Shown: positions 5,308 through 34,719 of the stretch, one piece after another
Layout of the letters: each line of letters begins with the position of its first letter
Position numbering within the stretch: the first letter of the stretch is position 1
Source of the DNA: Candidatus Eisenbacteria bacterium
GTDB taxonomy: Bacteria > Eisenbacteria > RBG-16-71-46
Direction: 5' to 3'
DNA length: 54,479 nucleotides
Assembly: GCA_013140805.1 (NCBI GenBank)
Contig: JABFRW010000029.1
Span: forward strand, 1-54,479
Translations under genes and position numbers: made by a program
Notes under the pieces: generated by a model
The model's input: the letters and a program-made list of their open reading frames with translations, nothing else
Database searches by the model: none
What the model was told of the DNA's origin: nothing

Positions 5308-5461
5308 AGCTGAAGTTTCCCTCGAAGTGGACGCCAGTTTGAAGCCGGAGTAGGTTGACCACTTCGGGCAGGCGTTCCACAACCGTCAGTCGGCTATGGC
5401 CGCGACGACGGTACTCCCGCAACGAGTTCACGATGGTGTTCGAAAGGCGAGTGCCGAACCG

Positions 5462-6499
5462 GTGAATAGGCTGCCTACACGGATTCCCTTACCGTCCGCC
5501 CTCGTGGTCGCTGTCATGATCGCTGCCGCTGCGCTCTCAAGCTGCACCGCGATCGCGGCTAGGCGATTGGAACCGAGGCCAATCGATCACGATCGTGACC
5601 ATGGCATCGCCTACGGTCCCCACCGTGATGGTCAGCGGCCGGGGGGCGTGAAACCGAGCCCGACCCAGATCGCGGAGGATCTTCGCCTCCTCGCTCGTCA
5701 TTGGCGAGCGATCCGAGTCTACGGATCCGCAGAGCTGGGGGAGACCATTCTGCGCACGATTCGGGACGAGCGGCTCGATCTTCATGTGATGCTCGGTGCG
5801 TGGATCGCCATGGAAGAGACCGTTCCTGACAGCAGCGGCGCTGCCAAGCGGTATCCCGATCGCCGCGCGGAGAACCGCCGCGAAATCGAAGCAGCCGTTC
5901 GCCTCGCGCACGACTACCCGGACATCGTGTCCTCAGTCTGCGTCGGCAATGAAACCCAGGTGACCTGGTCCGACCACCGTTGCCCGCCGGAAGTGCTGCT
6001 TGGCTACCTGCGAGAAGTGCGTCGACGTACGCGCGCCCCCGTCACCACCGCGGACGATTTCAACTTCTGGAACAAACCCGAGAGTGAGCGCGTGGCGCGC
6101 GAGTGTGATTTCATCGTGCTGCACGCGCACCCGCTATGGAATGGACTGCAGCTCGAGGAATCCATCGAGTGGATTCGAGGGGTGCTCACGAACGTTCGCA
6201 CCAGGCATCCCGACCGAACCGTCGTGCTCGGCGAAACCGGGTGGGCGACGCAACGCAGCGAGTCGGGTGAGCAAGCGATGCTCATGAAGGGGCGAGTGGG
6301 CGAGGCGGAGCAGGCGCGCTTCTACATCGCGTTCGGCGAGTGGATGCGGGGCGAAGGAGTCTCAACGTACTTCTTCGAGGCGTTCGACGAGAACTGGAAG
6401 GGCGGCGACCGTCCGGACGAGGTCGAAAAGCACTGGGGCTTGTATCGTGCTGATCGCACTCCGAAGGCCGCGATGGCAGGGCGTGCCGTCGGCCACTGA
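5462..6499 (+). CDS. Lipoprotein, GH17-like beta-1,3-glucanase candidate
   Basis: About 345 aa from a GTG at 5462, giving a compact lipoprotein signal with lipobox LSSC (Cys 28). An ATG at 5396 in the same frame would add 22 residues before the hydrophobic core and is less likely. The body resembles GH17-type (clan GH-A) barrels: IRVYGSAELGETIL, VGNET with acid/base candidate Glu 164, and LGETGW with nucleophile candidate Glu 258. GH17 enzymes act on beta-1,3-glucans as endo-enzymes or transglycosidases. It lies at the edge of the glucan locus, convergent with the phosphorylase gene and 27 bases from it. Confidence 0.78.
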   Translation: MNRLPTRIPLPSALVVAVMIAAAALSSCTAIAARRLEPRPIDHDRDHGIAYGPHRDGQRPGGVKPSPTQIAEDLRLLARHWRAIRVYGSAELGETILRTIRDERLDLHVMLGAWIAMEETVPDSSGAAKRYPDRRAENRREIEAAVRLAHDYPDIVSSVCVGNETQVTWSDHRCPPEVLLGYLREVRRRTRAPVTTADDFNFWNKPESERVARECDFIVLHAHPLWNGLQLEESIEWIRGVLTNVRTRHPDRTVVLGETGWATQRSESGEQAMLMKGRVGEAEQARFYIAFGEWMRGEGVSTYFFEAFDENWKGGDRPDEVEKHWGLYRADRTPKAAMAGRAVGH

Positions 6500-6526: not shown

Positions 6527-9500
6527 TCAATCCCGAAACAATCGGTCCTCTGGAATGCCGACCTCGATGCGCTCGATTTGGCCGCGCCGTGACCACAAGT
6601 CACGGCTCTCCGCGCGATCGAGCCAGCACCCCGGCTTTTCGCTGACCAGCCCAGCCTCCCTCACGACTCGGACCCAACCTTCGCCAGCCACGCGCGCATA
6701 CACGATCGGAACCTGGCAATAGGAAAACGCGAGCGCTTCCGAGGGCACCGACAGCGATCGCCTGGTGCCGGCCAGGTCGAAGTAGCTGTAGGTTCCCGGC
6801 TCCTTCAAGAAATCATCGGGTTGGAGCATCCACGGATCGAATCCCACGGCGCCATCGCGGACCTGCACACCCAGCTCGCCAAAGCGGGTGAGGATCTCTT
6901 CTTTGACCTGCCCCGTCATGCCCGGTTGTTGTGCCCCCGCATGAGACGGGGTGTGTGAGTAGGGGTCGGTCGGAAACGCACCGTATTCAATCACCGATTT
7001 TTCGAAGCCCAGCCCGCCCCGAATTCGGTAGTAGTCGCGCATGAGCGAGTCGCCGAGAGTTGAATCGACACCGGGCTCATGCGCCGCCAACGCGACTTCC
7101 TGAACGGCCAACAACAGTTTGGCTATCATGTGCCAGTAGACGCAGCCGATTCCCTCGTACGAGTAGATCCTCTCGGAGCGTCCCATGAACGTCTTGTGGG
7201 CAAACACCTCCGCGAATAGGTCGAGGAGAGCTGCTCGGTTGCGCGCGACCGCACCGGCCCAGCGTTCGCGCGGTTCCAGCCGATCGAGAGCGCTCGCCAC
7301 ATCACCAGCGTTGCCGAAGCTCGCATGGAATCGCAGCGCTCCGTCGGCATCTCGTTCGACGATCGACGTGTCTCTCGCGGTGAGCAGCTCGTTCACAAGT
7401 GGCACGGCGCGACTCTGCGCTTCCGAGATCACGTTGCGTTCGAGAAATGTCGGCAGCGTTCGCGTTGGTGACAACAAGAAGCTGTTCAGATCCGTGCGGT
7501 ACAGAGGACTCGCGAACAGACTCGTCACCAAACGCGTGGCATCCCCCGCGTCGACGAGCCCTGAACTCATGGCGGCCACCTGCCCTTCGAGCATCAATCC
7601 GAGCCGCCGCACGGTCGCGCGGGTGCCGTCTTCGGCGATCGTGAGTAGGTTGTACGAGTGGTAGAGGCCGTCACCCCGGAGGTTGGATGCGATCGCATGC
7701 TCCACATGGCTGCGCGCGACTCGACACCATGCGAACACCTCGCGCGCGTCGAGCGTCGACTTGGCACCGAATCCATGCGCGTAGAGGCGTTGGCGGTAGT
7801 TGGAGAACGAATGGCCGAGCGCGTCCATGATTTGCTTGCGCGTCACATCGTTCAGATCACCGGCCTCGAGCGTCGGCTCGTGTTGATGCAGGATCGCGGC
7901 GACTTCGCGCATCCATTCGACCACCTCGACCGCCACCTGTGCCTGCGCCTGTGGACGTTCGCTGAGCAGCGCTTCGAGGAAACTCAGGTATCGCCGCAGG
8001 TAGCACAGCGTGACCACGGAGAGTCCACTGCCGACGAGCGCGTTGTTCGCGTCGTTCCATTCCGGTCTTTGGGTGTTCATCCAGATGCCGCCGTCCGGGA
8101 CCAGGCACGACATCTTCGACAGCGCGGGAACCAGGAGTTTCTCCATCAGGCTGGCGTGATGGACCGTTCCGTCGCCAGCCTGGAGAAGTTTCCCGTCATC
8201 GCCGATCGCCGCCACTCGATCCGCGATGCGGGCGTTCCGAACCGCGTCGAACTGAATCGTCGCCCGAGGGTTCGCGAGCAATTCGGCATACGGCTTGAGC
8301 CGGTAGGGCACATCCGCGTAACTGAAGATCTCCTGCCCGAGCCAGTCCTCCAGGGCACCCGGAGTGTGGCGGCGCATCGATTCAAGGAACTTGAGCAGGT
8401 AGATGATCTGGTGATCGCCCCAGTATCCGATACCGCCCCACGGGTCTCGCGAATCGAGCAGCTCCCAATCCACCCCGTCACGAGTGATGCGATACGGGTT
8501 GAAACCGTCCACGGTGGAGGCGTTCAGAAACTTTGCCACGAAGCTGGGAATGAACGTCGGGAAGCTCAGCGAGAGCGCTTCCCAGTTCTGGAACACGTCA
8601 CGCCAATTGCCCTCGTAACGTAGCGCCCGGCTGCCGTCCGGATTCCGGACCGAGATTTCAAATCGATTCCATGGCCGGCTCGGGTCGCCGTGCCGGCGGC
8701 CGAAATAGAGTGGCAGGTACTCGAGACCCAGTCGCCTCAGATCGGAATTGCCGGAGGACTCGACCGCGTCGAGAAGCTCCCCGACATGCGGCCGCTCGCT
8801 CAGGCCACCGAGGAGCCCGCGATGTCGAGCGGCGACGCCGCGATTGCGGGCCCGCACAAAAGCGACGAAGTCCGCGCGCGGGCAGGTATCGTTCTCAACG
8901 AACACGCCGCCCCGCAAGTTGTTGAACATCACATTGGCGAGATGATGCGCCGCGGCGTTCGAACGCCCGGTGAGCTGAAGGCCGTCCGCACTACCCACGA
9001 TGCCGAGCAGGTTCGCGCTCGCGACATCGAGCGAGCGGACGACCCAGTCGCCCAAATCCGAGCGTTGCAGCAACCGCGCGCGCAGTCGCGCCACTTCGAC
9101 ATGGCTGCGATTCGCGTCGACCGCAACGTGCCACTCGAGCGTGGCGCCCGGTGCCAGCGTGAACTCGGACATGGCAAGATAGTTGCCGCGTTGTCCCGCG
9201 AGGACCGTCTGCTCACCCACCCACTCGCCGCGGCGAAAGGCCTTGAGCGCATCGAGTGAGAGGGCAACCCTGAACTCCGGCAGCCCGTGGCACCACACGG
9301 TGCTCGCGCGCAGCTCCTCACCGGGTTCCGGTCGATCGCTGATCCGTGACGTCAGCGAGACCGTGGCAAGTCGAGACGCGAGGTCCAGGTCCACACGCTT
9401 GTAGGCATCCACGAGGCAACTGGAATGCTGGTAGAGCGGAAGGGGGGCGCCGCTCGGCAACACGTTTCGGAGGCCATCGAGCAGCGCGACGACCACCGGT

Positions 9501-10027
9501 TCTCGTCCGAGATTCGTGAGGCTCGCGGTGCGCACCCACCCCGTCGCGTCGCTGCCACTCCACCGATAGCGGAAAGCGAGCTGCGCTTCTTCGTGGACTT
9601 CCTCGAACACGAGTCGATTCCCAAGCGCGCTCTTGCTGAGCGATCGCTGGAGTGCTCGCGCGCTTCGCTCGAAGGGTGCGAGCGGCTCCCAGGAGAACGG
9701 CGCGCGCGTGCCGCGCTGACACTTCACCACGGTCACGGGACCGGTATGGTGGGGTGAGTCGTACAACCGATCGACAGTCTCGTAGGGAAAGACCGCACCC
9801 TCGGGGTCCCGACGACCGGCCGTAAGGCCACCGTTTGAAGCCACGAACATCCACAGGTCCGTGTCGGTCGGCAGGTTCATCAAGAACGGTGGGAGCGCGT
9901 CGACGGTATGAATGCGGAAATAGTCTTCGTCGTCGCGCACGAAATGCTCCCCCGACGGTGCGAGCCGATCAGGAGCGGGCGCGGTCGGCCACACCGAGTC
10001 GAGGGACTTGCCGGGAACCGTGGTCAT
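6527..10027 (-). CDS. Large GH94-like (clan GH-Q) glucan phosphorylase candidate
   Basis: A 1166-aa protein without signal peptide, hence cytoplasmic. Residues 30-330 look like the N-terminal beta-sandwich of cellobiose-phosphorylase relatives (LWMFVASNGGLTAGRR, VFPYETVDRLYDS). An (alpha/alpha)6 region follows with NWRDVFQNWEA and PEWNDANNALVG. The latter aligns with the GH94 DWND catalytic-acid motif, placing the acid at Asp 659. Length and context fit the beta-1,3-glucan phosphorylase families GH149 or GH161 better than plain GH94 (about 800 aa); which of these it is cannot be decided by eye. It would release glucose-1-phosphate from imported oligosaccharides. Its ATG overlaps the stop of the GH16-like gene upstream (ATGA). 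Confidence 0.7.
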   Translation of the reverse strand: MTTVPGKSLDSVWPTAPAPDRLAPSGEHFVRDDEDYFRIHTVDALPPFLMNLPTDTDLWMFVASNGGLTAGRRDPEGAVFPYETVDRLYDSPHHTGPVTVVKCQRGTRAPFSWEPLAPFERSARALQRSLSKSALGNRLVFEEVHEEAQLAFRYRWSGSDATGWVRTASLTNLGREPVVVALLDGLRNVLPSGAPLPLYQHSSCLVDAYKRVDLDLASRLATVSLTSRISDRPEPGEELRASTVWCHGLPEFRVALSLDALKAFRRGEWVGEQTVLAGQRGNYLAMSEFTLAPGATLEWHVAVDANRSHVEVARLRARLLQRSDLGDWVVRSLDVASANLLGIVGSADGLQLTGRSNAAAHHLANVMFNNLRGGVFVENDTCPRADFVAFVRARNRGVAARHRGLLGGLSERPHVGELLDAVESSGNSDLRRLGLEYLPLYFGRRHGDPSRPWNRFEISVRNPDGSRALRYEGNWRDVFQNWEALSLSFPTFIPSFVAKFLNASTVDGFNPYRITRDGVDWELLDSRDPWGGIGYWGDHQIIYLLKFLESMRRHTPGALEDWLGQEIFSYADVPYRLKPYAELLANPRATIQFDAVRNARIADRVAAIGDDGKLLQAGDGTVHHASLMEKLLVPALSKMSCLVPDGGIWMNTQRPEWNDANNALVGSGLSVVTLCYLRRYLSFLEALLSERPQAQAQVAVEVVEWMREVAAILHQHEPTLEAGDLNDVTRKQIMDALGHSFSNYRQRLYAHGFGAKSTLDAREVFAWCRVARSHVEHAIASNLRGDGLYHSYNLLTIAEDGTRATVRRLGLMLEGQVAAMSSGLVDAGDATRLVTSLFASPLYRTDLNSFLLSPTRTLPTFLERNVISEAQSRAVPLVNELLTARDTSIVERDADGALRFHASFGNAGDVASALDRLEPRERWAGAVARNRAALLDLFAEVFAHKTFMGRSERIYSYEGIGCVYWHMIAKLLLAVQEVALAAHEPGVDSTLGDSLMRDYYRIRGGLGFEKSVIEYGAFPTDPYSHTPSHAGAQQPGMTGQVKEEILTRFGELGVQVRDGAVGFDPWMLQPDDFLKEPGTYSYFDLAGTRRSLSVPSEALAFSYCQVPIVYARVAGEGWVRVVREAGLVSEKPGCWLDRAESRDLWSRRGQIERIEVGIPEDRLFRD

Positions 10028-11750: not shown

Positions 11751-12725
11751 TCAGCGGCCGAGCACCAGTTTCCGTACCTGCCGTCCGTCCACCGTCTGGA
11801 GGACGCACTGGTAGACACCACTCGGAGCGCTCTGCCCATTATCGGATCGGCCGCGCCAGACCACTGAGTGGGAACCAGGTTCCGCCGGCCCATGGAATAA
11901 GGTCGCCACACGGCGTCCCGTGATATCGAACACGCTCAAGTCCGCGACGCTTGCGCGCGCAATCGAATACTCGATGCGAGTCGAGGTCAGGAACGGATTG
12001 GGAGCGGCCGTACGAAGCTCGAGACGCTCGCGGCCTGGAGCATCCGTCACGCCCGTCGGAACCAACGGGAGCCAGGACAGGTTGTCGTAGAAGACTCCCG
12101 ACCCTGCATAGGCAGTCGCCGTGTTGGAGAAGCCGAACTGAGCGATCTGTCCCACCATACTGGGGAAGATACTGAGCTGGATTGGAAACGTCCCCCAGGA
12201 CGTCGGAATCGTGGTCATGTCTGAGGTGACGAAGTGAGTGGTCGCGAATCCAGCGTTCGGATCGAGGGTCTTGACGAATGCGAACGCCGTGGATGGGCTG
12301 ACGAGATTTCCGAGCTTCGCGTCGAACGTGAATACCCAGGTCTTGCCGACATCCGCGGCGCTGATCGTCTGTTCGCGGAATACATTCGCCTCGATCAATC
12401 GGTTGTTCGCGTGGTCGAGGTTGTTGTAGTCGTTGTAGACGCTCAGCTGCTGCGCCCCCTGAGGTACGCCACCTTGTCCGGCGTCGATCGCGCAAAAACC
12501 GCCGCCGGGATTCGGGGCCGGGAACGCGCCGTACCCGTAGATGAACACGTGCGCAGGCGTGTATACGTTCCCGTAGACCAACCAGCCATCGTTCTGAAGC
12601 GCAGCCGGGTCCGTTTGCACCAGACTCTCGAAGTCTTGAGAGTAGGAGGCGAGGCTCGCGTGGCTCGCCGCCGGTGCGAGCGACACAAGGGCGACTGCAA
12701 AGACTGCCATCGTTCGAAGCGACAT
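11751..12725 (-). CDS. Secreted jelly-roll-like protein with FlgD-like C-terminal domain
   Basis: 324 aa from ATG 12725, preceded by GGAGG at good spacing; the earlier in-frame start at 12794 lies beyond this and would bury the signal peptide. The signal peptide ends near ASHAS. Residues 25-225 are beta-rich with YSQDFESL, GWLVYGNV and FYDNLSW, the layout of a carbohydrate-binding jelly roll, but no CAZy family is assigned by eye. The last 90 residues are a FlgD-like domain (FDITGRRVATL ... GVYQCVLQ). It is the first gene of the reverse operon 12725-6527 and sits directly behind operator site A, so it is probably a glucan-binding surface protein. Confidence 0.7.
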   Translation of the reverse strand: MSLRTMAVFAVALVSLAPAASHASLASYSQDFESLVQTDPAALQNDGWLVYGNVYTPAHVFIYGYGAFPAPNPGGGFCAIDAGQGGVPQGAQQLSVYNDYNNLDHANNRLIEANVFREQTISAADVGKTWVFTFDAKLGNLVSPSTAFAFVKTLDPNAGFATTHFVTSDMTTIPTSWGTFPIQLSIFPSMVGQIAQFGFSNTATAYAGSGVFYDNLSWLPLVPTGVTDAPGRERLELRTAAPNPFLTSTRIEYSIARASVADLSVFDITGRRVATLFHGPAEPGSHSVVWRGRSDNGQSAPSGVYQCVLQTVDGRQVRKLVLGR

Positions 12726-12787
12726 CGCGGTGACCTCCAGGTGGAAGTGAATCTCGGCTCGACGAAGCTCCCTGCGCTCCGAGTTCC

Positions 12788-12816
12788 TTGACACTCACAG
12801 CATGATCCTAGACTAT
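12788..12816 (+). promoter_or_regulatory. Predicted promoter for the forward operon (ABC ATPase, GH1, GH-barrel)
   Basis: A perfect TTGACA at 12788-12793 is followed after 17 bases by a weak -10 (GACTAT, 12811-12816) that runs into operator A. Because the operator covers the codons following the ATG at 12802, that ATG is unlikely to be the true start of the ATPase gene. Confidence 0.45.
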
Positions 12817-12833
12817 GTTCGACATGCGAACAA
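12805..12833 (-). promoter_or_regulatory. Predicted promoter for the reverse glucan operon, overlapping operator A
   Basis: On the reverse strand TTGTTC (12833-12828) is followed after 17 bases by TAGGAT (12810-12805). The -35 box sits inside the operator half-site, so repressor binding would block RNA polymerase. The predicted start near 12797 gives a leader of about 70 bases to the ATG at 12725. The -10 is weak (4 of 6). Confidence 0.5.
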
Positions 12834-12835
12834 AG
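12813..12835. promoter_or_regulatory. Operator site A (predicted ROK repressor site)
   Basis: An inverted repeat CTATGTTCG, five bases, CGAACAAAG. The same 9-5-9 pattern recurs at 26552-26574 and 26729-26751. The layout matches known ROK (NagC/Mlc-type) operators, which are inverted repeats around a short GC-containing centre. It lies between the divergent operons 12725-6527 and 12862-18410, so one bound protein could control both. Confidence 0.72.
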
Positions 12836-12861
12836 TACTTTCGTGGAGTGTTCACCGCGTC

Positions 12862-13932
12862 ATGAGGGACCACGCGCCCTCTGTTCCGCCGCCACCCATG
12901 CTCGAGGTCGTGGGACTGGGGAAGACGTTTACCTCCAAACGGATATTCGCCGCGGCCACACAGGTCTGCGCGGCCCGGGACGTCTCGTTCCGCATCGATC
13001 GGGGCGAAGCGGTTGCGCTCGTCGGAGAGTCGGGGAGCGGAAAGAGCACCATCGCGCGCATTCTGCTTCGGCTCGAAACGGCCGATCGGGGCGAGATTCG
13101 AATCTTGGGAGAGGACGTGCTGGCGGCGGAGCCGCACCGCGCGACTCTCGCGTATCGCGGCCGCGTTCAGATGGTGTTCCAGGATCCGTTCGGCTCGCTC
13201 AACCCCGTTCACAGCGTCGGGCACCACCTCGAACGACCCCTGGTTCGCCACGGCTCGCTCAACCCTCTTCACAGCGTCGCGCACCACCTTGAACGGCCGC
13301 TGGTGCGGCATGGCGAGCGGCTCCGAGGTTCCTCGCTCCACTCGAAGGTCCTCGAGCTATTGAAGACGGTCGGCCTCGACCCCCCGGAAGAATTCGTCAA
13401 CCGATATCCGCACGAATTGTCTGGCGGACAGCGCCAGCGCGTCGCAATCGCAAGAGCGCTCGCAGTCGAGCCCGACATCTTGGTCGCCGACGAGCCGACT
13501 TCCATGCTCGATGTGTCGATACGGATGGGCATCCTCAATCTTCTCGCTCGGCTCAAACAAGCGCGTGGCCTCGCGATTCTGCTTATCACGCATGATCTCG
13601 CGTCCGCGCGGTACCTGGCCGACCGTATCCTGGTCCTCTATCGCGGCCGACTCGTCGAGAATGGCCCCAGCGAGCAGCTCGTGGACTCGCCCGCGCACCC
13701 GTACACGCGCGCACTCCTGGCGTCGATCGCGGAGACCTCCCCGAAGTTGGTCGCCACCGGGGCCGCGCAACCGGCACCGGCCGGGCCCTCGGGTCTCGGC
13801 TGTCCGTTCGCTGCGCGGTGCCCGGATCGAATGGAAGTGTGCTCGACATCCGATCCTGAGCCGCGCACTCTAGGAGATCGCGCGGTGCGATGCCACCTCT
13901 ATCCGCCCACCCCGCTGCCGGTGCGGAGCTGA
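12862..13932 (+). CDS. Oligopeptide-type ABC transporter ATP-binding protein (OppF/DppF-like)
   Basis: 356 aa from ATG 12862. The Walker A motif is GESGSGKST, the Q-loop lies in MVFQDPFGSL, the signature is LSGGQRQR and Walker B is ILVADEPTS. The C-terminal Cys-rich oligo-binding tail (GCPFAARCPDRMEVC) is typical of Opp/Dpp ATPases that energise import of peptides or, in many thermophiles, cello- and laminari-oligosaccharides. An earlier ATG at 12802 overlaps operator A. An in-frame tandem duplication of 20 residues follows the Q-loop (see repeat). Its partner ATPase and permeases lie on the other strand at 18417-22972, so the importer is split between two operons. Confidence 0.9.
   Translation: MRDHAPSVPPPPMLEVVGLGKTFTSKRIFAAATQVCAARDVSFRIDRGEAVALVGESGSGKSTIARILLRLETADRGEIRILGEDVLAAEPHRATLAYRGRVQMVFQDPFGSLNPVHSVGHHLERPLVRHGSLNPLHSVAHHLERPLVRHGERLRGSSLHSKVLELLKTVGLDPPEEFVNRYPHELSGGQRQRVAIARALAVEPDILVADEPTSMLDVSIRMGILNLLARLKQARGLAILLITHDLASARYLADRILVLYRGRLVENGPSEQLVDSPAHPYTRALLASIAETSPKLVATGAAQPAPAGPSGLGCPFAARCPDRMEVCSTSDPEPRTLGDRAVRCHLYPPTPLPVRS
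13192..13311 (+). repeat. In-frame 60-bp tandem duplication inside the ABC ATPase gene
   Basis: Two adjacent 60-base units (13192-13251 and 13252-13311) differ at 9 positions by eye but encode 20-residue blocks differing only at two residues (Val/Leu and Gly/Ala). Residues 111-130 and 131-150 each read GSLNP-HSV-HHLERPLVRH. Mostly synonymous differences suggest an old duplication kept under protein-level selection. The position is just after the Q-loop. Confidence 0.9.
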
Positions 13933-13935
13933 ATC

Positions 13936-15327
13936 GTGAGCGCGCATCGCAAGACCGACGACTTCATGTGGGGCGTTGCGACCTCCGCGCAACAGATCGA
14001 AGGCGCGTTCGCTGAAGGCGGACGGGGCCAGTCGATCTGGGATCGATACGCGTCGACACCGAACCACATCCTTGACGGCTCGGATTCCCGATCGGCATGC
14101 GATCATTTTCATCGCTGGCAGAACGATATTGAGCTGCTCGAGTGGCTCGGCGTGGGAGCGTACCGCCTGTCGATCTCGTGGCCGCGGATTCTCCCAACGG
14201 GAAGCGGAAACGCGAACGCGGCGGGACTCGACTTCTACGACGCACTGATCGATCGGCTGCTCGCCTGCGGCATCCAGCCGTTCGTAACGCTGAACCACTG
14301 GGATCTGCCGCAAGCGCTTCAGGATCAAGGCGGGTGGACCTCGCGTTCCATGGTGAATGCGTTCGCCGACTACGTTGCCATTGTCAGCCGCCGGCTCGGC
14401 GACCGCGTCGGGCATTGGGTCACCCACAACGAACCCTGGTGCATCGCTCACCTGGGGTATCAGGAAGGTGTGCATGCGCCCGGATTGCGCGATCCCGGTG
14501 CCTCGTTGAAGGTGGTTCACCATTTGCTGCTCTCGCACGGGCGAGCGATCGAAATCCTGCGTGGCTATTCGCCGGGAGCACAGCTCGGGATCGTCCACCT
14601 CGCTACGTCTGTGCATCCTGTGTCCGATTCGGACGCAGATCGAGACGCCGCGCGCCAACTCGATGGTGCGTTCAATCGCTGGTACCTCGATCCCCTCTAC
14701 CGCGATGGCTATCCAGAGGACGCGATCGCGGATCACGTCGGGCTGGGCCACCTGGCGAACTCGGATCTCCCGTTCGTGCAGTCGGGCGACTTCGAGATCA
14801 TTCGGACGCCGACCGATTTTCTGGGGGTCAACTACTACAGCCGCAGCGTGGTGAAGCGCGGCCCCACCGGCGCTCCGCTCGCGATCCAGGTCGTGCCCGA
14901 CCACGAACTCACGGCGATGGGTTGGGAGGTCTATCCGCAAGGCCTCCACGAAGTGCTCACGCGCATTCACGCGGACTACCGCCCAGCCCGCATCTACCTC
15001 ACGGAGAACGGCGCGGCCTACGACGACGGGCCCTCGCCGTCGGATTCGCTGTCCGACCCTCGCCGAGTGGATTACCTGCGAACCCACGTCGCTGCCGCAC
15101 AGCAGTCGGCCGCAGAGGGAGTGCCGCTGCACGGCTATTTCGTGTGGTCGCTCATGGACAATTTCGAATGGGCTCAAGGACTCTCGAAACGTTTCGGGCT
15201 CTTTCACGTGGACTTCGAGACTCAACGCAGAACTCCGCGCGAGAGCGCATTCTGGTATCGCGACCTGATTTCGTCCGGGGCCGTTGATTCGGCCTCCCGG
15301 CACGTCCAAACAAGGAGAAGCCCGTGA
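13936..15327 (+). CDS. GH1 beta-glucosidase
   Basis: 463 aa from a GTG at 13936, four bases after the ATPase stop. Family 1 hallmarks are all present: FMWGVATSAQQIEG near the N-terminus, YRLSISWPRI, THNEPW with acid/base Glu 166, YLTENGA with nucleophile Glu 357, and GYFVWSLMDNFEWAQG near the C-terminus. There is no signal peptide, so it is cytoplasmic and would hydrolyse imported beta-glucosides such as laminari- or cello-oligosaccharides to glucose. Length is normal for the family. Its stop overlaps the start of the GH-barrel gene at 15324. Confidence 0.95.
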   Translation: MSAHRKTDDFMWGVATSAQQIEGAFAEGGRGQSIWDRYASTPNHILDGSDSRSACDHFHRWQNDIELLEWLGVGAYRLSISWPRILPTGSGNANAAGLDFYDALIDRLLACGIQPFVTLNHWDLPQALQDQGGWTSRSMVNAFADYVAIVSRRLGDRVGHWVTHNEPWCIAHLGYQEGVHAPGLRDPGASLKVVHHLLLSHGRAIEILRGYSPGAQLGIVHLATSVHPVSDSDADRDAARQLDGAFNRWYLDPLYRDGYPEDAIADHVGLGHLANSDLPFVQSGDFEIIRTPTDFLGVNYYSRSVVKRGPTGAPLAIQVVPDHELTAMGWEVYPQGLHEVLTRIHADYRPARIYLTENGAAYDDGPSPSDSLSDPRRVDYLRTHVAAAQQSAAEGVPLHGYFVWSLMDNFEWAQGLSKRFGLFHVDFETQRRTPRESAFWYRDLISSGAVDSASRHVQTRRSP

Positions 15328-18300
15328 AGCTGCCTGCATGCATCCGGTCGCATTGCGTGGCAACGATCCTCTGCCTCCTGGCCACCGTGCTGGCGACCCG
15401 GGCGCCGGCAAGTGCCATGGCGCAGACCGACTCCGCTCTGCGGCGCCCATCGGTTCGCGTGTTCAGCGACGACACGGGAAAGCGCCTCCAGGTGGGTGGG
15501 CACGACTTCTTCGTGCGCGGGATGAACTGGGATTACACGCCCATCGGTCAGAACTACGCCTTCGATCTGTGGCAGCAGGCCGACGAAGTCATCACCGCGG
15601 CGCTCGACCACGAGATGTCCTTGCTCGCGGGCATGGGAGTCAACACCCTTCGCATCTACACCGGAATCCCGCCGCGCTGGGTGCGTTACATCTACGACCG
15701 CTACGGGATCTACTGCATCATCAATCACCCGGTTGGGCGCTACGGCTACACGCTGGACGGGGTCTGGCGGACTTCGGTTGACTATTCAGAACTGCGCATG
15801 CGGGCCGCGCTGGCCGCCGATGTCGCCGCCATGGTCGAGACGTATCGTGGCACGCCCGGAGTGCTGATGTACCTGCTCGGCAATGAGAACAACTACGGCC
15901 TGTCGTGGAGTTCGTTCGAAATCGAGGCGCTGCCCAAGGGCGACCGCGATACGGCACGCGCGCGGTTCTTGTACTCGTTATTCGGTGAGATCGCTCGCGC
16001 CACCAAGGCAAGGGACCCGGGAGTCCCGGTGGCCATCGCGAATGGTGACCTCCAATACATCGACGTGATCGCGGCGGAGTGCAAGGGCATCGACGTATTC
16101 GGCACCAACGTCTATCGCGGCATCTCGTCTCGAGACTTGTTCCAGGTCGTGCGCGACAAACTCCACGTTCCTCTCCTGTACACCGAGTTCGGCTCGGATG
16201 CCTTCAATGCCCGCGACATGCGGGAGGACCAGACCATGCAGGCGCGCTACCTGATCGGACTCTGGCGCGAGATCTACGAGAAGAGCGCGGGTCACGGCCA
16301 GGAAGGCAACGCCATCGGTGGTTGCGTGTTTCAGTGGTCGGATGGCTGGTGGAAGTACAAACAGGAAGAACGACTCGACGTGCACGACACGAACGCCTCG
16401 TGGCCGAACTCCGGTTACACCGAGGACTACGTGCAAGGCGAGAACAACATGAACGAGGAGTGGTGGGGGATCTGCGCCAGGGGATACCCCGACAGTCGCG
16501 GCCTCTACGAACTCTATCCGCGCGCGGGGTACTACGCGCTCCGCAAAGTGTTTGAGCTCGATCCCTATGCTCCGACCACCACGAACGAGGTCATTCGCGC
16601 GCACTTCGACGCGATCACTCCGAGCGTTGCTGCGCTCCAGGCGCGCGCGGACCGCGCGGCTCTGGCCACGAATGCGCTCGAACGCGTGCGCGTATCCGGC
16701 GTTCGACTGCAGTTCGAGACCATCAGCACCGGCGCGAATCTCACCCGACCTCCGCAATTCGGTGATCCCTCGTTCCGAGGGTTCGACAAGTTCCAATCTT
16801 TCTACACCGATCTCCAGGCCAACCCATCACCGGCCGTGACCGGAAAGCTGTCGCTCAACGTGCGCGGAAACGTGCCGACCAACACGATCGATCAGATCTT
16901 TTACGAAAATCGGAGTACCGATCGCGTGAAGGTCTACCAGTCGAGCCTCAGCTGGGACGACCGTTGGTTCGGGCTCGATGGGTTCTACCGCACCGGCCAC
17001 TTCCACTGGGGCTACGAAGGTGACTTCTTCGGCCTCTACCGTGAAGCCAACTACGGACCGAACGTCGACACCTACGACGCAGAAGCCCCGGTGGGCGTCG
17101 AGATGGCGGCCAAGCGTTCGCTGTCGGGGCTCAAGCTCGCGTTCGGCCCTCAACTCTGGTGGGGCGCCCCGCCCGCCGCATTGCTCAAGTACCGGCGCCA
17201 GGTGGGACGCTTCGACGCGACCGCAGTCTACGAGAAGGATATCGATACCCAGGGCGCATTTACGATCGTCGGTTCATCATTCGTGGCTCTGAAGCCAACG
17301 CAGAAGGGAGCGCTGCATCTCAAGACGGCTCACGGTCCCTTCACCCTCGAAGCGGGTGGCATCTGGGCAGGCGCAAACTACTTCAACGACCCGTTCCCCG
17401 TTTCCGACGGCAGCGGCGACTCCTACCGGCTGCTCCAAGACCGCGTGCATACGGCCGACGAGTTCGGCGGCAAGTTCCGCGTTTCCGCTGCGCAGGGCCG
17501 GCTGCAGTGGTACGTGCAGGGGGCCTCGATGGGCCCGGTGGCAGAGGGTGGGCCGACCGGAACCAACAACTATGTCGGATGGACCTTGAAGGATTCGGGG
17601 CTCGGCAACCAACGCAATGTCATCGGCGGTTTCGCCTACGGCGTTGGGCACTTTCAATTCGGCCCGAATTTCCTGTGGCAGAAACCCATCGTCGCACCGC
17701 TCGCGAAGGACGACCGCAATCAGGGCGTCCAGCGCAGCCTGCTGGACAGTCCTTTCGCCGTGCGCGGCAATCGCGAGATGACGGCGGGCGAAATCATCGT
17801 CGCCTACGACCCGACGCCCGCCACCTGGCTGTTCGCGTGGGACAACGACGTTCGCGAGGATTCCCGGTTCGCCGGCAGCGTGGGGTTCGTCTACAAGCAC
17901 ATGCCGACTTCCATGGACGCCGCGATCGGCTTTCTCTCGGATGGAGTCACCCCGTTCGTCTTCGACGGCTCGACGCCACCGCGCGACCTGTGGGAAGTGA
18001 ACGGCCGCGGCGTCTCGCGTCTCGGTACCAACCTGCGAGTCGTGGTGCACGCCTACGTGGGTGTCGCGGAGCCGACCCTTTCGCCGGATCCAAGGCTTGT
18101 CCGGCGTCGCGGTGCGGACATTCGACTCACGGGGGGCAGCACCTCGTTGACCGCGTACGCCAAGTTCGACGACTTCGGCCCCTACGACTTCTTCAGAGAC
18201 TTCAACCTCACGTATCCGGTTCAGCTGATGGGCGATCTCTCACACACGCTCGGCTCCCCGCTGTGGTTCGAGACGAATCCACAAACGCGCATCGGAGTGC

Positions 18301-18410
18301 GTGGAACGTGGCGATCGCTCGACTCGTACTCCCTGCGTTACATCGGAATCACGGGAGACCCGAACGGAAACGAGTGGGAAGTGCGGACCTACGTGCGACT
18401 CGCGATCTAG
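15324..18410 (+). CDS. Clan GH-A glycoside hydrolase fused to a probable outer-membrane beta-barrel
   Basis: 1028 aa with a signal peptide (residues 1-34). Residues 40-420 form a GH2/GH5-like TIM barrel: FFVRGMNWDY, MGVNTLRIYTG, LLGNENN with acid/base candidate Glu 188 and LLYTEFGSDA with nucleophile candidate Glu 288. A linker at 420-470 leads to about 560 residues with no enzyme motif but many alternating hydrophobic/aromatic strands (LAFGPQLWWG, FNLTYPVQLMG, YVRLAI at the very end), the character of a transmembrane barrel. The barrel assignment is by pattern only. It would tether catalysis to the outer membrane and might pass products through. It is last in the forward operon, ending 6 bases from the convergent ATPase gene. 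Confidence 0.68.
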   Translation: MKLPACIRSHCVATILCLLATVLATRAPASAMAQTDSALRRPSVRVFSDDTGKRLQVGGHDFFVRGMNWDYTPIGQNYAFDLWQQADEVITAALDHEMSLLAGMGVNTLRIYTGIPPRWVRYIYDRYGIYCIINHPVGRYGYTLDGVWRTSVDYSELRMRAALAADVAAMVETYRGTPGVLMYLLGNENNYGLSWSSFEIEALPKGDRDTARARFLYSLFGEIARATKARDPGVPVAIANGDLQYIDVIAAECKGIDVFGTNVYRGISSRDLFQVVRDKLHVPLLYTEFGSDAFNARDMREDQTMQARYLIGLWREIYEKSAGHGQEGNAIGGCVFQWSDGWWKYKQEERLDVHDTNASWPNSGYTEDYVQGENNMNEEWWGICARGYPDSRGLYELYPRAGYYALRKVFELDPYAPTTTNEVIRAHFDAITPSVAALQARADRAALATNALERVRVSGVRLQFETISTGANLTRPPQFGDPSFRGFDKFQSFYTDLQANPSPAVTGKLSLNVRGNVPTNTIDQIFYENRSTDRVKVYQSSLSWDDRWFGLDGFYRTGHFHWGYEGDFFGLYREANYGPNVDTYDAEAPVGVEMAAKRSLSGLKLAFGPQLWWGAPPAALLKYRRQVGRFDATAVYEKDIDTQGAFTIVGSSFVALKPTQKGALHLKTAHGPFTLEAGGIWAGANYFNDPFPVSDGSGDSYRLLQDRVHTADEFGGKFRVSAAQGRLQWYVQGASMGPVAEGGPTGTNNYVGWTLKDSGLGNQRNVIGGFAYGVGHFQFGPNFLWQKPIVAPLAKDDRNQGVQRSLLDSPFAVRGNREMTAGEIIVAYDPTPATWLFAWDNDVREDSRFAGSVGFVYKHMPTSMDAAIGFLSDGVTPFVFDGSTPPRDLWEVNGRGVSRLGTNLRVVVHAYVGVAEPTLSPDPRLVRRRGADIRLTGGSTSLTAYAKFDDFGPYDFFRDFNLTYPVQLMGDLSHTLGSPLWFETNPQTRIGVRGTWRSLDSYSLRYIGITGDPNGNEWEVRTYVRLAI

Positions 18411-19376: not shown

Positions 19377-20310
19377 GGGATCGCACCACCGGGGTGGATC
19401 GCGCAGTCTTCAGTCCGCGGCGATTGAGATGTTCACGCCAGGCGCGCTCCAGTTGGAGCCGTGGGTTGGAGATTTCGTCGAATCCGGAGTTCAACATACT
19501 GAGGCCGAAACCCACGAGCGCCACGCAAAACCCGGTGGGTGCAAACGTCCACCAGGCGCCGGTCAAGAGCGCGGAGTCGTTCTGCGCCCAATAGAGATTC
19601 GTTCCCCAGGTCACGGCCGACACGTCGCCGAGCCCGAGGAATTCGAGCCCGACCTGCGCTCCGATCGCGTAGATCGTGCTGCCGATCACCTGGGCGACGA
19701 GCAACGAGGTCATAGTGGGCAGGATCTCACTCAAGATGATGCGGAAATCCGACTCGCCGGTGACGATCGCCGCGGCGACGAAATCGCGCCGGCGCAGGCT
19801 CAGCGTTTGCGCCCGAATCACCCTCGCGTTCCACGCCCAGCCCGCGATGATCAGTACGAGCGCGAGCGTAAACGAGCCGGTCGGTAGATAGGCGGCGATC
19901 ACGATCGCGAGCGGCAATCCCGGAATCACCAGGAAGACGTTGAAGAGGAGGGAGAGCAGTGCATCGATGCGACCGCCATAGAACCCCGCCGTCACGCCCA
20001 CCATGGCTCCGATCAGCACCACGGCGAGGCCCACCCCAAACCCGATCAGCAACGACACGCGAGTGCCCACGATGAGCTGCGCCAGAACATCCTGGCCCTG
20101 CCCCGTGGTGCCGAGCAGGTGATGAAGCGAAGGCGCCTGCAACGGGATGCCCACGAGCGCCTGCGGGTCGCCGACGAGCAGCGGGCCGAGCACGGCGATG
20201 AAGGCGAACACCGCAAGCACCGCAGCGCCCATGCCCGCCTTGCGGTCGCGCCGGATCGCATCCCACCACTGCGCGATCCCAAAGTTCCGGCGGCTCGAGG
20301 TCGCGCTCAT
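19369..20310 (-). CDS. ABC transporter permease (DppC/OppC-like)
   Basis: 313 aa from ATG 20310, which overlaps the stop of the upstream permease (ATGA); the open frame further upstream is only read-through over that gene. It has an N-terminal TM helix after a short cytoplasmic stretch (AVLAVFAFIAVLGPLL), the family motif HHLLGTTGQGQDVLAQLIVGTRVSL with TM segments either side, and an EAA-loop region around VTGESDFRIILSEILP. It forms the inner-membrane channel with the DppB-like subunit. Confidence 0.92.
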   Translation of the reverse strand: MSATSSRRNFGIAQWWDAIRRDRKAGMGAAVLAVFAFIAVLGPLLVGDPQALVGIPLQAPSLHHLLGTTGQGQDVLAQLIVGTRVSLLIGFGVGLAVVLIGAMVGVTAGFYGGRIDALLSLLFNVFLVIPGLPLAIVIAAYLPTGSFTLALVLIIAGWAWNARVIRAQTLSLRRRDFVAAAIVTGESDFRIILSEILPTMTSLLVAQVIGSTIYAIGAQVGLEFLGLGDVSAVTWGTNLYWAQNDSALLTGAWWTFAPTGFCVALVGFGLSMLNSGFDEISNPRLQLERAWREHLNRRGLKTARSTPVVRSHD

Positions 20311-21290
20311 GATGCTGAATCCCGGATGCGTGGATCGAGCCACAGACACACGAGATCCACCAGCCAGTTGGCGCCGAGCACCGCGAACGTGATTACCAGG
20401 AAGATGCCCTGCATGAGCGGGTAATCCTGGTTGCGAACCGCTTGCACCAGTACGTAACCCTGGCCCGGATATGAGAATACGATCTCGGTGAGAAGCGCGC
20501 CACCCAGCACGAAGCCGATCGCCATGCCAAAACTGGTGACGCTTGGAAGCAGCGCGTTGCGCGCGGCATAGCGCAGCACGACGCGCGCGGGAGGCAGCCC
20601 TTTCGCGCGGGCGAGGTTCACGTAGTCGGAGCCGAGCACCGTGATCATGGTGTTGCGCATCGAGAGCAGCCAACCGCCGAGGCTCGCGATCACGATCGAA
20701 CCGACCGGCAACACCGCATGGGCGGCGACATCGGCGAGAAACGTGAGCGTGAAGCTGGGTTTCAAGTCGTCGGAGTACGCATGCCCGAGCGGGAACCAAC
20801 CGAGCGTGAAGCCGAGCACGTAGAGCGCAACCATTGCCAGCCAGAAGTAGGGCAGGGCGCCGAGGAACACCAGCGCCGAGGGCATCCAGGTGTCGACCCA
20901 CCCGCGCCGCCACCACGCGGCGGCGACCCCCAACATTGTGCCGATGACGAAACTCACCAGCACCGCGGTGCCGGCGAGAAAAATCGTCCACAAGAGCCCC
21001 GTACCGATGACGTGGGCAACGGGCGCCGGGAAGTAGGCCACCGAGATGCCGAAGTCCCCGCGGAGCGCGTGGCTAATGTAGGTGAGGTATTGCTTCCACA
21101 GCGGCGCCTGCGTCAGGCCGAATGTCTCCCGCAAGGCCTCCAGCGCTTCCGGCGCGAGCCGCCCGCGGAAACGCGCGAACAACGCGGTCGCGGGGTCACC
21201 CGGCATGAGCCGTGGCAGAAAGAAATTGAGCGTCAGCGCCACCCATGCCGCCACCGCGTAAAATCCGAGGCGCCGGAGCAGGAATCTCAT
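20307..21290 (-). CDS. ABC transporter permease (DppB/OppB-like)
   Basis: 327 aa with six predicted TM helices. Typical family features are the N-terminal LGFYAVAAWVALTLNFFLPRLMPGDP, the periplasmic loop with the sequence YLTYISHALRGDFGISV, the EAA-type loop NLARAKGLPPARVVLRYAARNALLP and the final LLTEIVFSYPGQGYVLVQAV region. It overlaps both neighbours by ATGA, showing tight translational coupling in the importer operon. Confidence 0.93.
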   Translation of the reverse strand: MRFLLRRLGFYAVAAWVALTLNFFLPRLMPGDPATALFARFRGRLAPEALEALRETFGLTQAPLWKQYLTYISHALRGDFGISVAYFPAPVAHVIGTGLLWTIFLAGTAVLVSFVIGTMLGVAAAWWRRGWVDTWMPSALVFLGALPYFWLAMVALYVLGFTLGWFPLGHAYSDDLKPSFTLTFLADVAAHAVLPVGSIVIASLGGWLLSMRNTMITVLGSDYVNLARAKGLPPARVVLRYAARNALLPSVTSFGMAIGFVLGGALLTEIVFSYPGQGYVLVQAVRNQDYPLMQGIFLVITFAVLGANWLVDLVCLWLDPRIRDSAS

Positions 21291-22972
21291 CGCCCCACCT
21301 GTCTCGGGGCGAGTCGCGTCAGCACGAGCAGCACTTCGCCGCGATCGTACTTATTCGGCGATGCGTCCGCGTAAGGGTCCTCACGTGACGGAAATCCCTC
21401 GGTGCGAGCCGTGTTGTACTCGGCCCATGAAGGATTCGGGTAGAGCGGAATCGCAGGTGCTTCCGCCACGAACACGCGCTGCAGCTCGGCGCACAACCGA
21501 TGCTGCGCGAGGGAATCTGCTTCCACTTCGAATGCCGCGAGAGCGCGCGTCGCAGCGGCGCTCCCATAACGATGCCAGTTTCCCATCGATGCCTCGCCCG
21601 TCGGCTTCACCGTGGCAGCGGCCATGAGCCACTGATAGAAGGTATAGGGCGTCGGCCCCTCGAACGACCAGCCAAGTGTCAGGTCGAAGTTGCCTTCCTG
21701 GACCCGTTGGAACCACGCGCTGAAGTCATAGGTGCGCACGGTGGCGTCGATGCCCACCTCACGCAATCCGCGCGCGATGACCTGTGCGGCGCGCACCCAA
21801 TCCGACCAGCCGGAGACCGCGTAGATTTCGTAGTTCAGCGCCTTGCCGTCCGGGAGGCGTCGCTTGCCGTCAGCGCCCCGCTTGATTCCGGCTTCGTCGA
21901 GCAGCGCTGCTGCGCGAGTCGCATCGTGATGCACCCAGTCGCCACTTGCCACCGCGATGGAATCGCGCCAGGTCGAATACGCATCGCTGAGGCCCGTAGC
22001 GTCGGCCGGCTTGGAGTAGCGATAGAGCGCGACGTCTACCAGCAGTTCGCGATCGATCGCCATGCTGAGTGCCTTGCGCACTCGCACGTCATCGAATGGC
22101 GCGCGGGTCGTGTTGGCATAGAGAAAGATGCTGCTTCCGGTCAGCGGAAACCAGTATCCGTGCGCGTCGGGCCGACGATTCACGAACACGCGATCGATCG
22201 CGGGCACGAAGTTGCCGGCCCAGTCTACCTCGTCGAACACGAGCGCGAGGTTGGCGCGATCGTTCCCGGGGTAGGCCGGAAATCGGAGGGTTTCCAGCTT
22301 CGGAAGCCCGGCCTGCCAGTAGTCGGGGTTGCGCCCGAGTTCGTAGACCTGGTTCTCGAACGTCTTCACTACGGTAAATGGCCCGGTCGCTACGGGATGC
22401 TCGTTCGCAAATGACACCGGGTCCTTCACGCTCGACCAATCATGCTCCGGGACGATCTGCTGGGCCACGATCTCGTCTGCACCGGGAATGAAGATGCGCT
22501 TGAATCGGAAGTCGACCGTGTGCTCATCGACCGCTTTCACGCTCTCGAGGAATCCCCAGACGCCGCGCCGGTCGAGCGCGGGGAATCGCTTGAGGAGTCC
22601 GAAGGTGAACGCGACGTCGCGGGCCGTGAACGCCTGCCCATCGGACCACCGCACGCCGGCACGCATCGTGACGCGAAACACGCGATTGCCTTCGCGCCAT
22701 TCCCTCGCCGTCGCCAGCCAGGGGACCGACGTGCCCTTCACGCTGTTGAACACGAACAGAGGCTCGTAGATACCAGCCATCGTCGGCCAGCGTGCGGCGG
22801 TTGCGGTGGTGAGGGGATTGAAGTTGCGTACCCACGAGCCCTGCTGTTCCTGCGAAACAACCAGCACGCCACTCGGCGGTGCCTCGCGCCGCCGAGCGCA
22901 TCCTGCGATCGCGAATGCAAGTGCCGCGGCGGTGGCGAGCACCACGACGACGCGAACGGCCCGTGGCGCCAT
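21287..22972 (-). CDS. ABC transporter substrate-binding lipoprotein (SBP family 5)
   Basis: 561 aa; lipobox AIAGC with Cys 25. It has the family 5 layout: AGIYEPLFVFN, VRWSDGQAFTARDVAFTF, VRKALSMAIDRELL and a C-terminal VEADSLAQHRLCAELQ segment. Family 5 proteins bind peptides, but members next to glucanases bind cello- or laminari-oligosaccharides (known in Thermotoga), and the GH16, GH1 and ROK neighbours make that the best guess. The ligand is not provable from sequence. The ATG shares one base with the GH16 stop. Confidence 0.9.
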   Translation of the reverse strand: MAPRAVRVVVVLATAAALAFAIAGCARRREAPPSGVLVVSQEQQGSWVRNFNPLTTATAARWPTMAGIYEPLFVFNSVKGTSVPWLATAREWREGNRVFRVTMRAGVRWSDGQAFTARDVAFTFGLLKRFPALDRRGVWGFLESVKAVDEHTVDFRFKRIFIPGADEIVAQQIVPEHDWSSVKDPVSFANEHPVATGPFTVVKTFENQVYELGRNPDYWQAGLPKLETLRFPAYPGNDRANLALVFDEVDWAGNFVPAIDRVFVNRRPDAHGYWFPLTGSSIFLYANTTRAPFDDVRVRKALSMAIDRELLVDVALYRYSKPADATGLSDAYSTWRDSIAVASGDWVHHDATRAAALLDEAGIKRGADGKRRLPDGKALNYEIYAVSGWSDWVRAAQVIARGLREVGIDATVRTYDFSAWFQRVQEGNFDLTLGWSFEGPTPYTFYQWLMAAATVKPTGEASMGNWHRYGSAAATRALAAFEVEADSLAQHRLCAELQRVFVAEAPAIPLYPNPSWAEYNTARTEGFPSREDPYADASPNKYDRGEVLLVLTRLAPRQVGR

Positions 22973-23802
22973 CAGTCGCGCCTATAGACGCGGACATAGT
23001 CAACCAGCAGCCGCTGGGGAAATACAGTCGAGGCGTCTGGAGGCCCGACGAAGCTGCCGCCGACGGCGAGGTCGAGAACCACGAAGAACGGGTGATTGAA
23101 CACCCACCACGCGCCACTCGGGATCTGGGAGGGAACGACGGTGAAGTAGACGTGATCATCGATGGACCACGCGATGGAGGAAGAAGTCCATTCCACGGCG
23201 TAGAGATGAAACGTGGAGTCGAGCGGAACTCCCGGAACCGAATAGGAATTCGTGATCGCGTTGCCGCCGGAATAGCCCGGGCCGTGCAGGCTGCCGTGAA
23301 GCAGGCTCGGTTCCTGGCCCCTGAATTCCATGATGTCGATCTCGCCGCACCCCGGCCACGGGACCGTGTCCAGGTTGGATCCCAGCAGCCAGAACGCGGG
23401 CCACAGGCCGCGCCCGCGCGGCAGGCGCATCCGTGCTTCAAATCGTCCGCCCGCCTGGTCGAAACGATTGCGCGTGTTGATCCGGCCCGACGTGTAGTTG
23501 CGGCTTTGGTAGGGCTCTTCACGCGCGATGATGGCCAGATTCCCGGAGCCGTCGAGTGAAACGTTCTCCGGTCGCGCCGTGTCGTATTCGAGTTGCCCGT
23601 TGCCCCAGTCGGTGCCGACGTCAAACGTCCAGCGGGATGGATCAGGTAGTTGGCCGACGGCGCCGTCGAATTCGTCCTGCCACACGAGCTCCCACTGCGT
23701 CTTCGTGGGGTGTTTGGTGCAGGCGACGCTTCCGGCGATGATCGTGAACACGCACACGACGAACACCCCAACGTGGCCGATCCGCTTGCGGACTCGTGTC
23801 AT
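22972..23802 (-). CDS. GH16 lipoprotein, laminarinase-type beta-glucanase
   Basis: 276 aa from ATG 23802, which overlaps the ROK stop (ATGA) and follows GAGGAG; a start at 23829 also exists. The lipobox is SVAC (Cys 28). Catalytic motif GEIDIMEF carries the nucleophile Glu 154 and acid/base Glu 159. FWLLGSN, WPGCGEIDIMEF and the C-terminal LLVDYVRVYRRD are standard for the beta-1,3-glucanase branch of GH16, and the length fits a single catalytic module. It is expected at the periplasmic or outer-membrane face, cutting beta-1,3-glucan to oligosaccharides for the importer encoded next to it. Confidence 0.93.
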   Translation of the reverse strand: MTRVRKRIGHVGVFVVCVFTIIAGSVACTKHPTKTQWELVWQDEFDGAVGQLPDPSRWTFDVGTDWGNGQLEYDTARPENVSLDGSGNLAIIAREEPYQSRNYTSGRINTRNRFDQAGGRFEARMRLPRGRGLWPAFWLLGSNLDTVPWPGCGEIDIMEFRGQEPSLLHGSLHGPGYSGGNAITNSYSVPGVPLDSTFHLYAVEWTSSSIAWSIDDHVYFTVVPSQIPSGAWWVFNHPFFVVLDLAVGGSFVGPPDASTVFPQRLLVDYVRVYRRD

Positions 23803-25052
23803 GCGCTCCTCGAGTGCTCTCGCGCGCAAGGAAAGAGGCGCATGTCGTCGAGCGCCGCCACCAGCACGTAAGTCGCCGCACCGACCGCAATCGACCGAGG
23901 ACCCAGCTCGCTGGTTCGCACTTCGGCGACTGCAAGGGAACTCACGAGCGTCCGGCTGCGAATCACCTCACGCAGCGGCTCCAACAATCGGTCGCCCAGC
24001 CGTGCGATGCCGCCGCCGACGATCACCAGACGCGGATTCATGAGATTGAGCAGGCCCGCGATTGCGATGCCGAGGTGGCCTGCCGCCTCGGTCACGATCT
24101 GCATCGCGAGCGGATCGCCCAAGAGAGCGGCATCCTCGATGGTCTCGATCGTGGGCGAGGTCTGGGAGAGGATGCTGTTCGGAAAGCGGGCGCGCAGTTC
24201 CGCAGCGCGTTCGACCAGTGCCGGCGCCCCGACCAGCGTCGCCAGGCATCCGCGCAGCCCGCAAACGCACGGCCTGCCGTTCGGATCGATCGCCAGGTGG
24301 CCAATCTCGCCCGCCACCCCGGTCGCACCACGATAGACATCGCCCTGGAGGAAGTGCCCGGAGCCCACGCCGGTCGCCACCTTGACGTACGCGAAATCAT
24401 CCACGCCGCGGCCCGCGCCCCACCAGCGTTCCGCGAGTGCGCCGAGGTTGGCGTCGTTGTCCACGAACAGCGGCACGCGAAAGCGTGTCGCGAGTGACTT
24501 GAGTTCGCCGCGGCCGCGCCAGTCGGGGAGTACCAGTGTGGAGAAATGATCGGGGTGCTTCGGATCCACCGGGCACGGAACGGCGACGCCGACCCCAAGC
24601 AGCCTCTTGCGACTTCCCGGCTCCGAGTCGAGGCACTTCGTGCACAATTCCGCGATGAGCGCCCGCGTGCCGACCGGATCAGTGCGAACCGAGTGGAAGC
24701 GGTGCTGCCAGCCGAGCACTTCCCCGCGCAGGTCGGTGAGCGCCACCGCGACGTGCGTGGCGCCCATGTCGACGCCCAGAATGCAACCCGCTTGATAGTT
24801 GAACTCGAGCACGATCGGCGGTCGGCCGCCGCGTGAGGGTCCGACGCCGACTTCGGAGACCAGCCCCGTCGTGAGAAGTTCATCCACGATTTCCGTGACC
24901 GTGGAGCGGGAGAGCCCGGCGCGCCGCGCGATCTCCGCGCGGGAGATACGGTGTTCTTGCCAGATGATCCGCAGGGTCGCCTGCGTGAGCGTTCCGACCT
25001 GCGTGCCCGTGGAACGCGCTCCGGAATGCCCCTCGCCGTTTGTTGGCTTCAT
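23799..25052 (-). CDS. ROK family transcriptional repressor
   Basis: 417 aa. Residues 20-80 are a winged helix-turn-helix (ISRAEIARRAGLSRSTVTEI). The ROK kinase-like domain follows with GVDMGATHVAVAL, and the zinc motif CVCGLRGC supplies Cys 262, 264 and 269. GGGIARLGDRLL is the late Gly-rich motif. Proteins with both parts are sugar-responsive repressors (NagC, Mlc, XylR type) that bind inverted-repeat operators. Three copies of one such repeat lie upstream of this operon and of the divergent operons, so self-control is likely. The inducer is probably glucose or a laminari-oligosaccharide (inference). It lies between the binding lipoprotein and the GH16 gene in one operon. Confidence 0.93.
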   Translation of the reverse strand: MKPTNGEGHSGARSTGTQVGTLTQATLRIIWQEHRISRAEIARRAGLSRSTVTEIVDELLTTGLVSEVGVGPSRGGRPPIVLEFNYQAGCILGVDMGATHVAVALTDLRGEVLGWQHRFHSVRTDPVGTRALIAELCTKCLDSEPGSRKRLLGVGVAVPCPVDPKHPDHFSTLVLPDWRGRGELKSLATRFRVPLFVDNDANLGALAERWWGAGRGVDDFAYVKVATGVGSGHFLQGDVYRGATGVAGEIGHLAIDPNGRPCVCGLRGCLATLVGAPALVERAAELRARFPNSILSQTSPTIETIEDAALLGDPLAMQIVTEAAGHLGIAIAGLLNLMNPRLVIVGGGIARLGDRLLEPLREVIRSRTLVSSLAVAEVRTSELGPRSIAVGAATYVLVAALDDMRLFPCAREHSRSA

Positions 25053-29103: not shown

Positions 29104-29160
29104 GCAACCCTCCCTCGTGACGCGGGAGAGTCTAGCTTCAACTGTCTACCGAATGGGGGA

Positions 29161-32238: not shown

Positions 32239-32241
32239 CCG

Positions 32242-34712: not shown

Positions 34713-34719
34713 GGTGGTC

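Follow-up and report, generated by a model that had tools for sequence, protein, structure and literature searches.

A stretch of 54,479 nucleotides from a Candidatus Eisenbacteria genome (contig JABFRW010000029.1; the window) encodes a protein that, judged by its sequence, is a well-supported and ordinary member of the known family GH149, set in a laminarin-type locus. We consider it very probable that this protein is a cytoplasmic, inverting GH149 beta-1,3-glucan phosphorylase that acts in a pathway, apparently encoded at the locus, for the cutting, import and use of laminarin. This role would place beta-1,3-glucan phosphorolysis in one more bacterial group beyond those of the founding GH149 paper, the available part of which named Proteobacteria, Bacteroidetes and Euglenophyta (euglenids) (PMC5827456). 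The interest of the locus rests mainly on this GH149 lineage and on an adjoining candidate fusion of an enzyme with an outer-membrane barrel.

An earlier reading of the DNA without database searches (the sequence-only reading) had proposed a 1166-aa protein at 6527-10027 without naming a strand; the open reading frame is intact, lies on the minus strand, begins with ATG and encodes exactly 1166 amino acids. The NCBIfam equivalog model NF058639 (‘1,3-beta-D-glucan phosphorylase, GH149 family’) matched residues 26-1158 over model positions 7-1133 of 1134 with 1386.7 bits (curated cut-off 1150, E = 0), a full-length likeness to the curated family that lies beyond chance. The sole strong match in the PDB was the crystallised GH149 enzyme Pro_7066 (6hq6/6hq8, 981.7 bits). 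The alignment is nearly full length, with 40% identity across 951 aligned positions when the Pro_7066 sequence, which in this comparison and that of the inserted domains stops at residue 981, is used; the two proteins fall in different parts of the tree. From the 40% identity to 6hq6 we infer an (alpha/alpha)6 catalytic fold.

The sequence-only reading had favored GH149 or GH161 over classical GH94. The first of these families and the rejection of GH94 both stood, whereas GH161 fell away. GH161 phosphorylases share clan GH-Q according to the available text of one report (PMC6484121), and the similarity of the GH161 chains 9qqk (46.6 bits) and 9h8v (45.1 bits, named ‘cellobiose phosphorylase’ in the PDB) to the window protein is local and near the catalytic region (best stretch 532-696), not full length. 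GH94 phosphorylases likewise belong to clan GH-Q and carry WND and RD motifs, as the accessible part of the Pro_7066 report describes (PMC6771811), but at E 0.001 the window protein was not matched by the Pfam GH94 model, in a scan in which no Pfam family matched at all. Because the same model matches two other genes of the source genome (1.9e-117 and 7.7e-114), it would have picked out a GH94 gene from this source. Two smaller points of the sequence-only reading also held. The EWNDAN motif is present as PEWNDANN at residues 655-662, the usual GH149 form and the one found in Pro_7066. The predicted lack of a signal peptide agrees with a top 15-residue hydropathy of 0.73 in the first 90 residues, with no hydrophobic segment, compared with 2.2-2.8 for several exported-looking neighbors.

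The active-site residues of Pro_7066 are given in the available text of its structural report as R470, D471, W651, N652, D653, E951 and H959 (PMC6771811). All seven are kept in the window protein as R476, D477, W657, N658, D659, E958 and H966, which comprise the RD motif, the WND loop, the Glu and the His. They are also identical in 92/92 rows of an alignment made from 93 ORFs minus 3 short fragments, plus the window protein and Pro_7066. Both GH149-specific inserted domains are present and undeleted, with 59/59 positions of Dom1 aligned (24% identical) and 87/87 of Dom2 (29%). That the protein is inactive, or is an unrelated (alpha/alpha)6 protein, is a reading for which we found no supporting point and which is extremely unlikely given the complete active site, the intact frame and the full-length GH149 model match; the best match is to GH149 and not to a non-catalytic or unrelated (alpha/alpha)6 family. 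Family-wide conservation of the active site does not by itself prove a beta-1,3 linkage.

The surface sugar-binding site of Pro_7066 differs. Only one of its eight residues is kept, Y993 as Y1000, and the changed positions of the window protein are F838, T845, N848, S989, R997, R1001 and Q1069 (S989, R997, Y1000, R1001 and Q1069 were read from the alignment by eye). The available text on Pro_7066 notes that this site varies within the family and that its conservation drops in bacterial GH149 sequences that are more distant (PMC6771811). Because the site is mostly not kept, the chain-length behavior of the window enzyme may differ, and a divergent GH149 without the described surface site makes the role of that site in chain-length choice testable. 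Its loss would also fit a GH-Q phosphorylase with another substrate use, either GH161-like chain-length behavior in which laminaribiose is not used, or an activity directed at oligosaccharides with beta-1,4 or mixed linkages, and mixed-linkage glucans can be substrates of GH16 and GH1 enzymes. We regard this as very unlikely, since the equivalog model for GH149 was matched, the GH161 chains gave local matches of 45-47 bits only, and the GH17 and GH158-like neighbors point to beta-1,3 linkages.

The glucan context that the sequence-only reading had seen around the gene proved to be larger than noted, with GH16, GH17, GH1, an OppBCDF-type transporter, a family-5 binding protein and a ROK regulator all within about 21 kb (Table 1). 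The nearest solved structure to the GH17 protein is a GH17 enzyme (PDB 6fcg, 2.2e-24), and the protein carries GNET and GETGW motifs. The stop of the 594-aa gene overlaps the start of the GH149 gene by 4 bases (ATGA), which suggests translational coupling of the two. The middle part of the 594-aa protein has an EIDVE motif and looks GH16-like by eye. The PDB matches of its profile were limited to FlgD and T9SS-type chains, with none for the middle part; the Pfam search returned FlgD/T9SS-type tails plus weak unrelated matches, with no family for the middle part; and an AlphaFold model built from three sequences was unusable (mean pLDDT 50.9). The middle part stays a tentative GH16-like candidate, and the GH16 gene recognised by its Pfam model lies at 22972-23829.

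Table 1. Genes at and around the GH149 gene, with positions in the window.
Position	Strand	Assignment	Support
5396..6499	+	GH17, endo-beta-1,3-glucanase candidate, lipoprotein-like (hydrophobic N-terminus and Cys)	PF00332 1.4e-10
6527..10027	-	GH149 beta-1,3-glucan phosphorylase candidate, 1166 aa, predicted cytoplasmic	NF058639, 6hq6, active-site residues
10024..11808	-	Exported protein, 594 aa, FlgD_ig/T9SS-like tail	
11751..12794	-	Exported protein, FlgD_ig tail, binding-module-like by eye	
12802..13932	+	OppF-like ABC ATPase, oligopeptide/oligosaccharide type	PF00005, PF08352
13936..15327	+	GH1 beta-glucosidase	PF00232 1.2e-152; TIGR03356 584.7 bits (cut-off 478.5)
15324..18410	+	GH158-like (clan GH-A type) barrel with candidate C-terminal outer-membrane-type beta-barrel, 1028 aa	
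18417..19376	-	OppD-like ABC ATPase	PF00005, PF08352
19369..20991	-	OppC-like permease (true start probably downstream of the listed one)	PF00528 4.3e-18
20307..21290	-	OppB-like permease	PF00528 1.8e-36
21287..22972	-	Family-5 solute-binding protein, oligosaccharide type	PF00496 3.6e-73
22972..23829	-	GH16, beta-1,3-glucanase candidate	PF00722 6.3e-21 (5.4e-21 in whole-genome search)
23799..25052	-	ROK-family regulator, winged-helix DNA-binding region	PF00480 1.6e-54; PF13412 2.3e-07
25095..26471	-	Lipoprotein-like protein, weak Big_2 match	In other phyla, relatives adjoin GH149

These genes suggest a pathway in which the GH16, GH17 and GH158-like enzymes would cut laminarin-like beta-1,3-glucan outside the inner membrane and the resulting oligosaccharides would cross the outer membrane. 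The family-5 binding protein would then capture them for import through the OppBCDF-type ABC transporter. In the cytoplasm, the GH149 enzyme would use phosphate to remove the terminal glucose, yielding glucose-1-phosphate and a chain one unit shorter, and GH1 would turn the short leftovers into glucose. Phosphoglucomutase, for which family genes were found elsewhere in the source genome, would pass glucose-1-phosphate to glycolysis. Regulation of the locus probably falls to the ROK protein. One observation counts against a laminarin role: of the PDB matches of the binding protein that are named for a substrate, the best is a chito-oligosaccharide binder and not a laminari-oligosaccharide binder (the chitin-oligosaccharide-binding protein 1zty, among the best matches at 8.7e-88). 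The same phosphorylase could also work in the synthetic direction, building a beta-1,3-glucan store from glucose-1-phosphate, and the accessible part of the founding paper reports that the reaction is reversible in vitro (PMC5827456). However, the identified neighbors are degradative, import or regulatory genes, and no glucan synthase model matched among the window ORFs scanned, so we consider synthesis very unlikely and favor phosphorolysis of imported laminarin fragments.

The most novel nearby feature is the 1028-aa protein. The profile of a 15-row alignment of this protein matched GH2 and GH158 structures, including 6pal and 9oro, weakly but consistently, and the GH2 TIM-barrel Pfam model matched weakly in 15/15 rows, the window protein's own score of 18.4 bits being below the cut-off of 21. 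Its AlphaFold model has a barrel domain at residues about 40-450 followed by a long run of antiparallel-looking strands (461-1027); mean pLDDT was 66.5 and pTM 0.45, so that the overall arrangement is uncertain. The best Foldseek matches of the model were GH158(Pro) and BuGH158, followed by the barrels of sucrose porin (1a0t), OmpT, AlgE and FecA. In VIA-align, GH158(Pro) reached Z 28.4 and was tied with GH5 and GH2 enzymes at 27-28, so that the assignment to GH158 is provisional. Glu188 and Glu288, candidates for the two catalytic glutamates expected of a GH158 enzyme, are invariant in 15/15 rows. We tested the strands for hydropathy alternation: in the 22 C-terminal strands it was 2.31 versus 1.52 in shuffles, a value reached in 1/2000, while the 10 N-terminal strands alternated no more than shuffles (397/2000 reached their value).

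On these results, the 1028-aa protein resembles a laminarinase of GH158 type joined in one chain to an outer-membrane barrel. Over residues about 39-448 its modeled fold matches that of the endo-laminarinases BuGH158 and GH158(Pro) (Z 26-28), whereas the sequence similarity is weak and the C-terminal barrel-like part of about 570 residues is extra. The protein was found in 14/47 genomes of the phylum, including 12/13 of those with GH149, and its relatives adjoin GH149 in Bacteroidota and Woeseiaceae loci. We tentatively suggest, as a reading that falls somewhat short of probable, a laminarin system with no SusC/SusD pair among the scanned window ORFs, in which a GH158-type endo-beta-1,3-glucanase and a porin in one chain couple cutting at the surface to entry of the products, the Opp importer and GH149 save ATP, and the fusion travels with GH149 across phyla. 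The papers in the one library searched, as far as their text was available, held no description of GH158 with a porin or of such an enzyme-barrel fusion. If it is confirmed, the enzyme-porin candidate would be a greater surprise than the GH149 enzyme.

Much of the beta-glucan locus is conserved in related genomes. A same-phylum comparison covered 13 loci from 12 other genomes, several of them cut by contig ends. GH17 and GH1 each occurred in 7 of these loci, the 594-aa protein had a long match in 8, and the 1028-aa protein was present in 6. Long matches to the 594-aa protein were present in 11/13 GH149-bearing genomes of the phylum. Among 80 loci retained from at least 591 relatives, 48 carried GH17 relatives, 29 all or part of the 1028-aa protein and 6 the binding protein; 39 of these loci extend at least 8 kb to either side, and in this subset the counts were 24, 19 and 5. 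The p-values of the co-occurrence tests are a guide only, as the tests treat genomes as independent although relatives are not. The matches to the 1028-aa protein cover less than 60% of its length in 12 of the 29 loci, and may in some cases consist of just the enzyme part. Relatives of the lipoprotein-like protein at 25095-26471, which is perhaps a surface glucan-binding protein, adjoin GH149 in 19/80 retained loci. An SBP-OppB-C-D-F set immediately precedes GH149 in five Vibrionaceae/Psychromonadaceae loci (L024, L030, L045, L050 and L077), and a Neomarinimicrobiota locus (L017) has the order SBP-OppB-C-D-F-GH1-GH149.

GH149 has been placed in similar surroundings before. In the available text of two reports, the GH149 of Muricauda and Formosa lies within or close to laminarin loci that also carry GH16 and GH17 (PMC13188888, PMC6246565), and a third, also available in part, lists GH149 with the GH16 and GH17 families in Woeseiaceae (PMC12175321). 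Transport differs: the accessible descriptions of the Muricauda and Formosa loci give a TonB-dependent receptor/SusD or MFS, whereas the window locus has an Opp-type ABC importer and the GH158-like candidate barrel fusion.

The sequence-only reading had held that the candidate families are small, so that a new lineage would be informative. This is weaker than stated, as GH149 is no longer small and the clade is shared with other phyla. One scan returned at least 592 pattern-matching stretches, at least 591 of them encoding GH149 relatives, and by record title the matches listed include Bacteroidota, Pseudomonadota, Chloroflexota, Deinococcota, Verrucomicrobiota and others. Within the window's phylum, 13/47 genomes had a GH149 match at E 0.001 (one gene split over two contigs, one a fragment at a contig end) and 11/47 were above the curated cut-off; none of 14 control genomes matched. 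In the one library searched, we found no account of GH149 for Krumholzibacteriota, Eisenbacteria or Eiseniibacteriota. In a quick LG+G4 tree of 92 rows, 52 of them of unusual composition, the window protein grouped with its class-mates and one sequence each from Krumholzibacteriota, Effluviviacota and a Steroidobacteraceae MAG in a clade of 14 rows (SH-aLRT 99). The last of these sequences (L013:2167-5601, 68%) is the closest named relative among the matches listed and lies on a 6-kb contig, so its label may reflect misbinning or transfer; the Effluviviacota and Krumholzibacteriota MAGs come next in the tree. In the same tree, a GH149 on a 93-kb contig labelled Candidatus Brockarchaeota (L044:10001-13348) adjoins a KSB1 sequence and is possibly archaeal.

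Outside the locus, the two GH94-model matches of the source genome lie at G000:C31:40526-41794 and G000:C51:5571-6842. One is inside a 2903-aa open frame, which we take, by resemblance, to be perhaps a cyclic beta-glucan synthase type protein. Farther along the window, transposase-type genes with integrase cores are found at 28088-29107 (-) and 41391-42539 (+), and a series of histidine kinase, sigma-54 response regulator and MacB/FtsX-type ABC exporter genes spans 29555-36630 (-).
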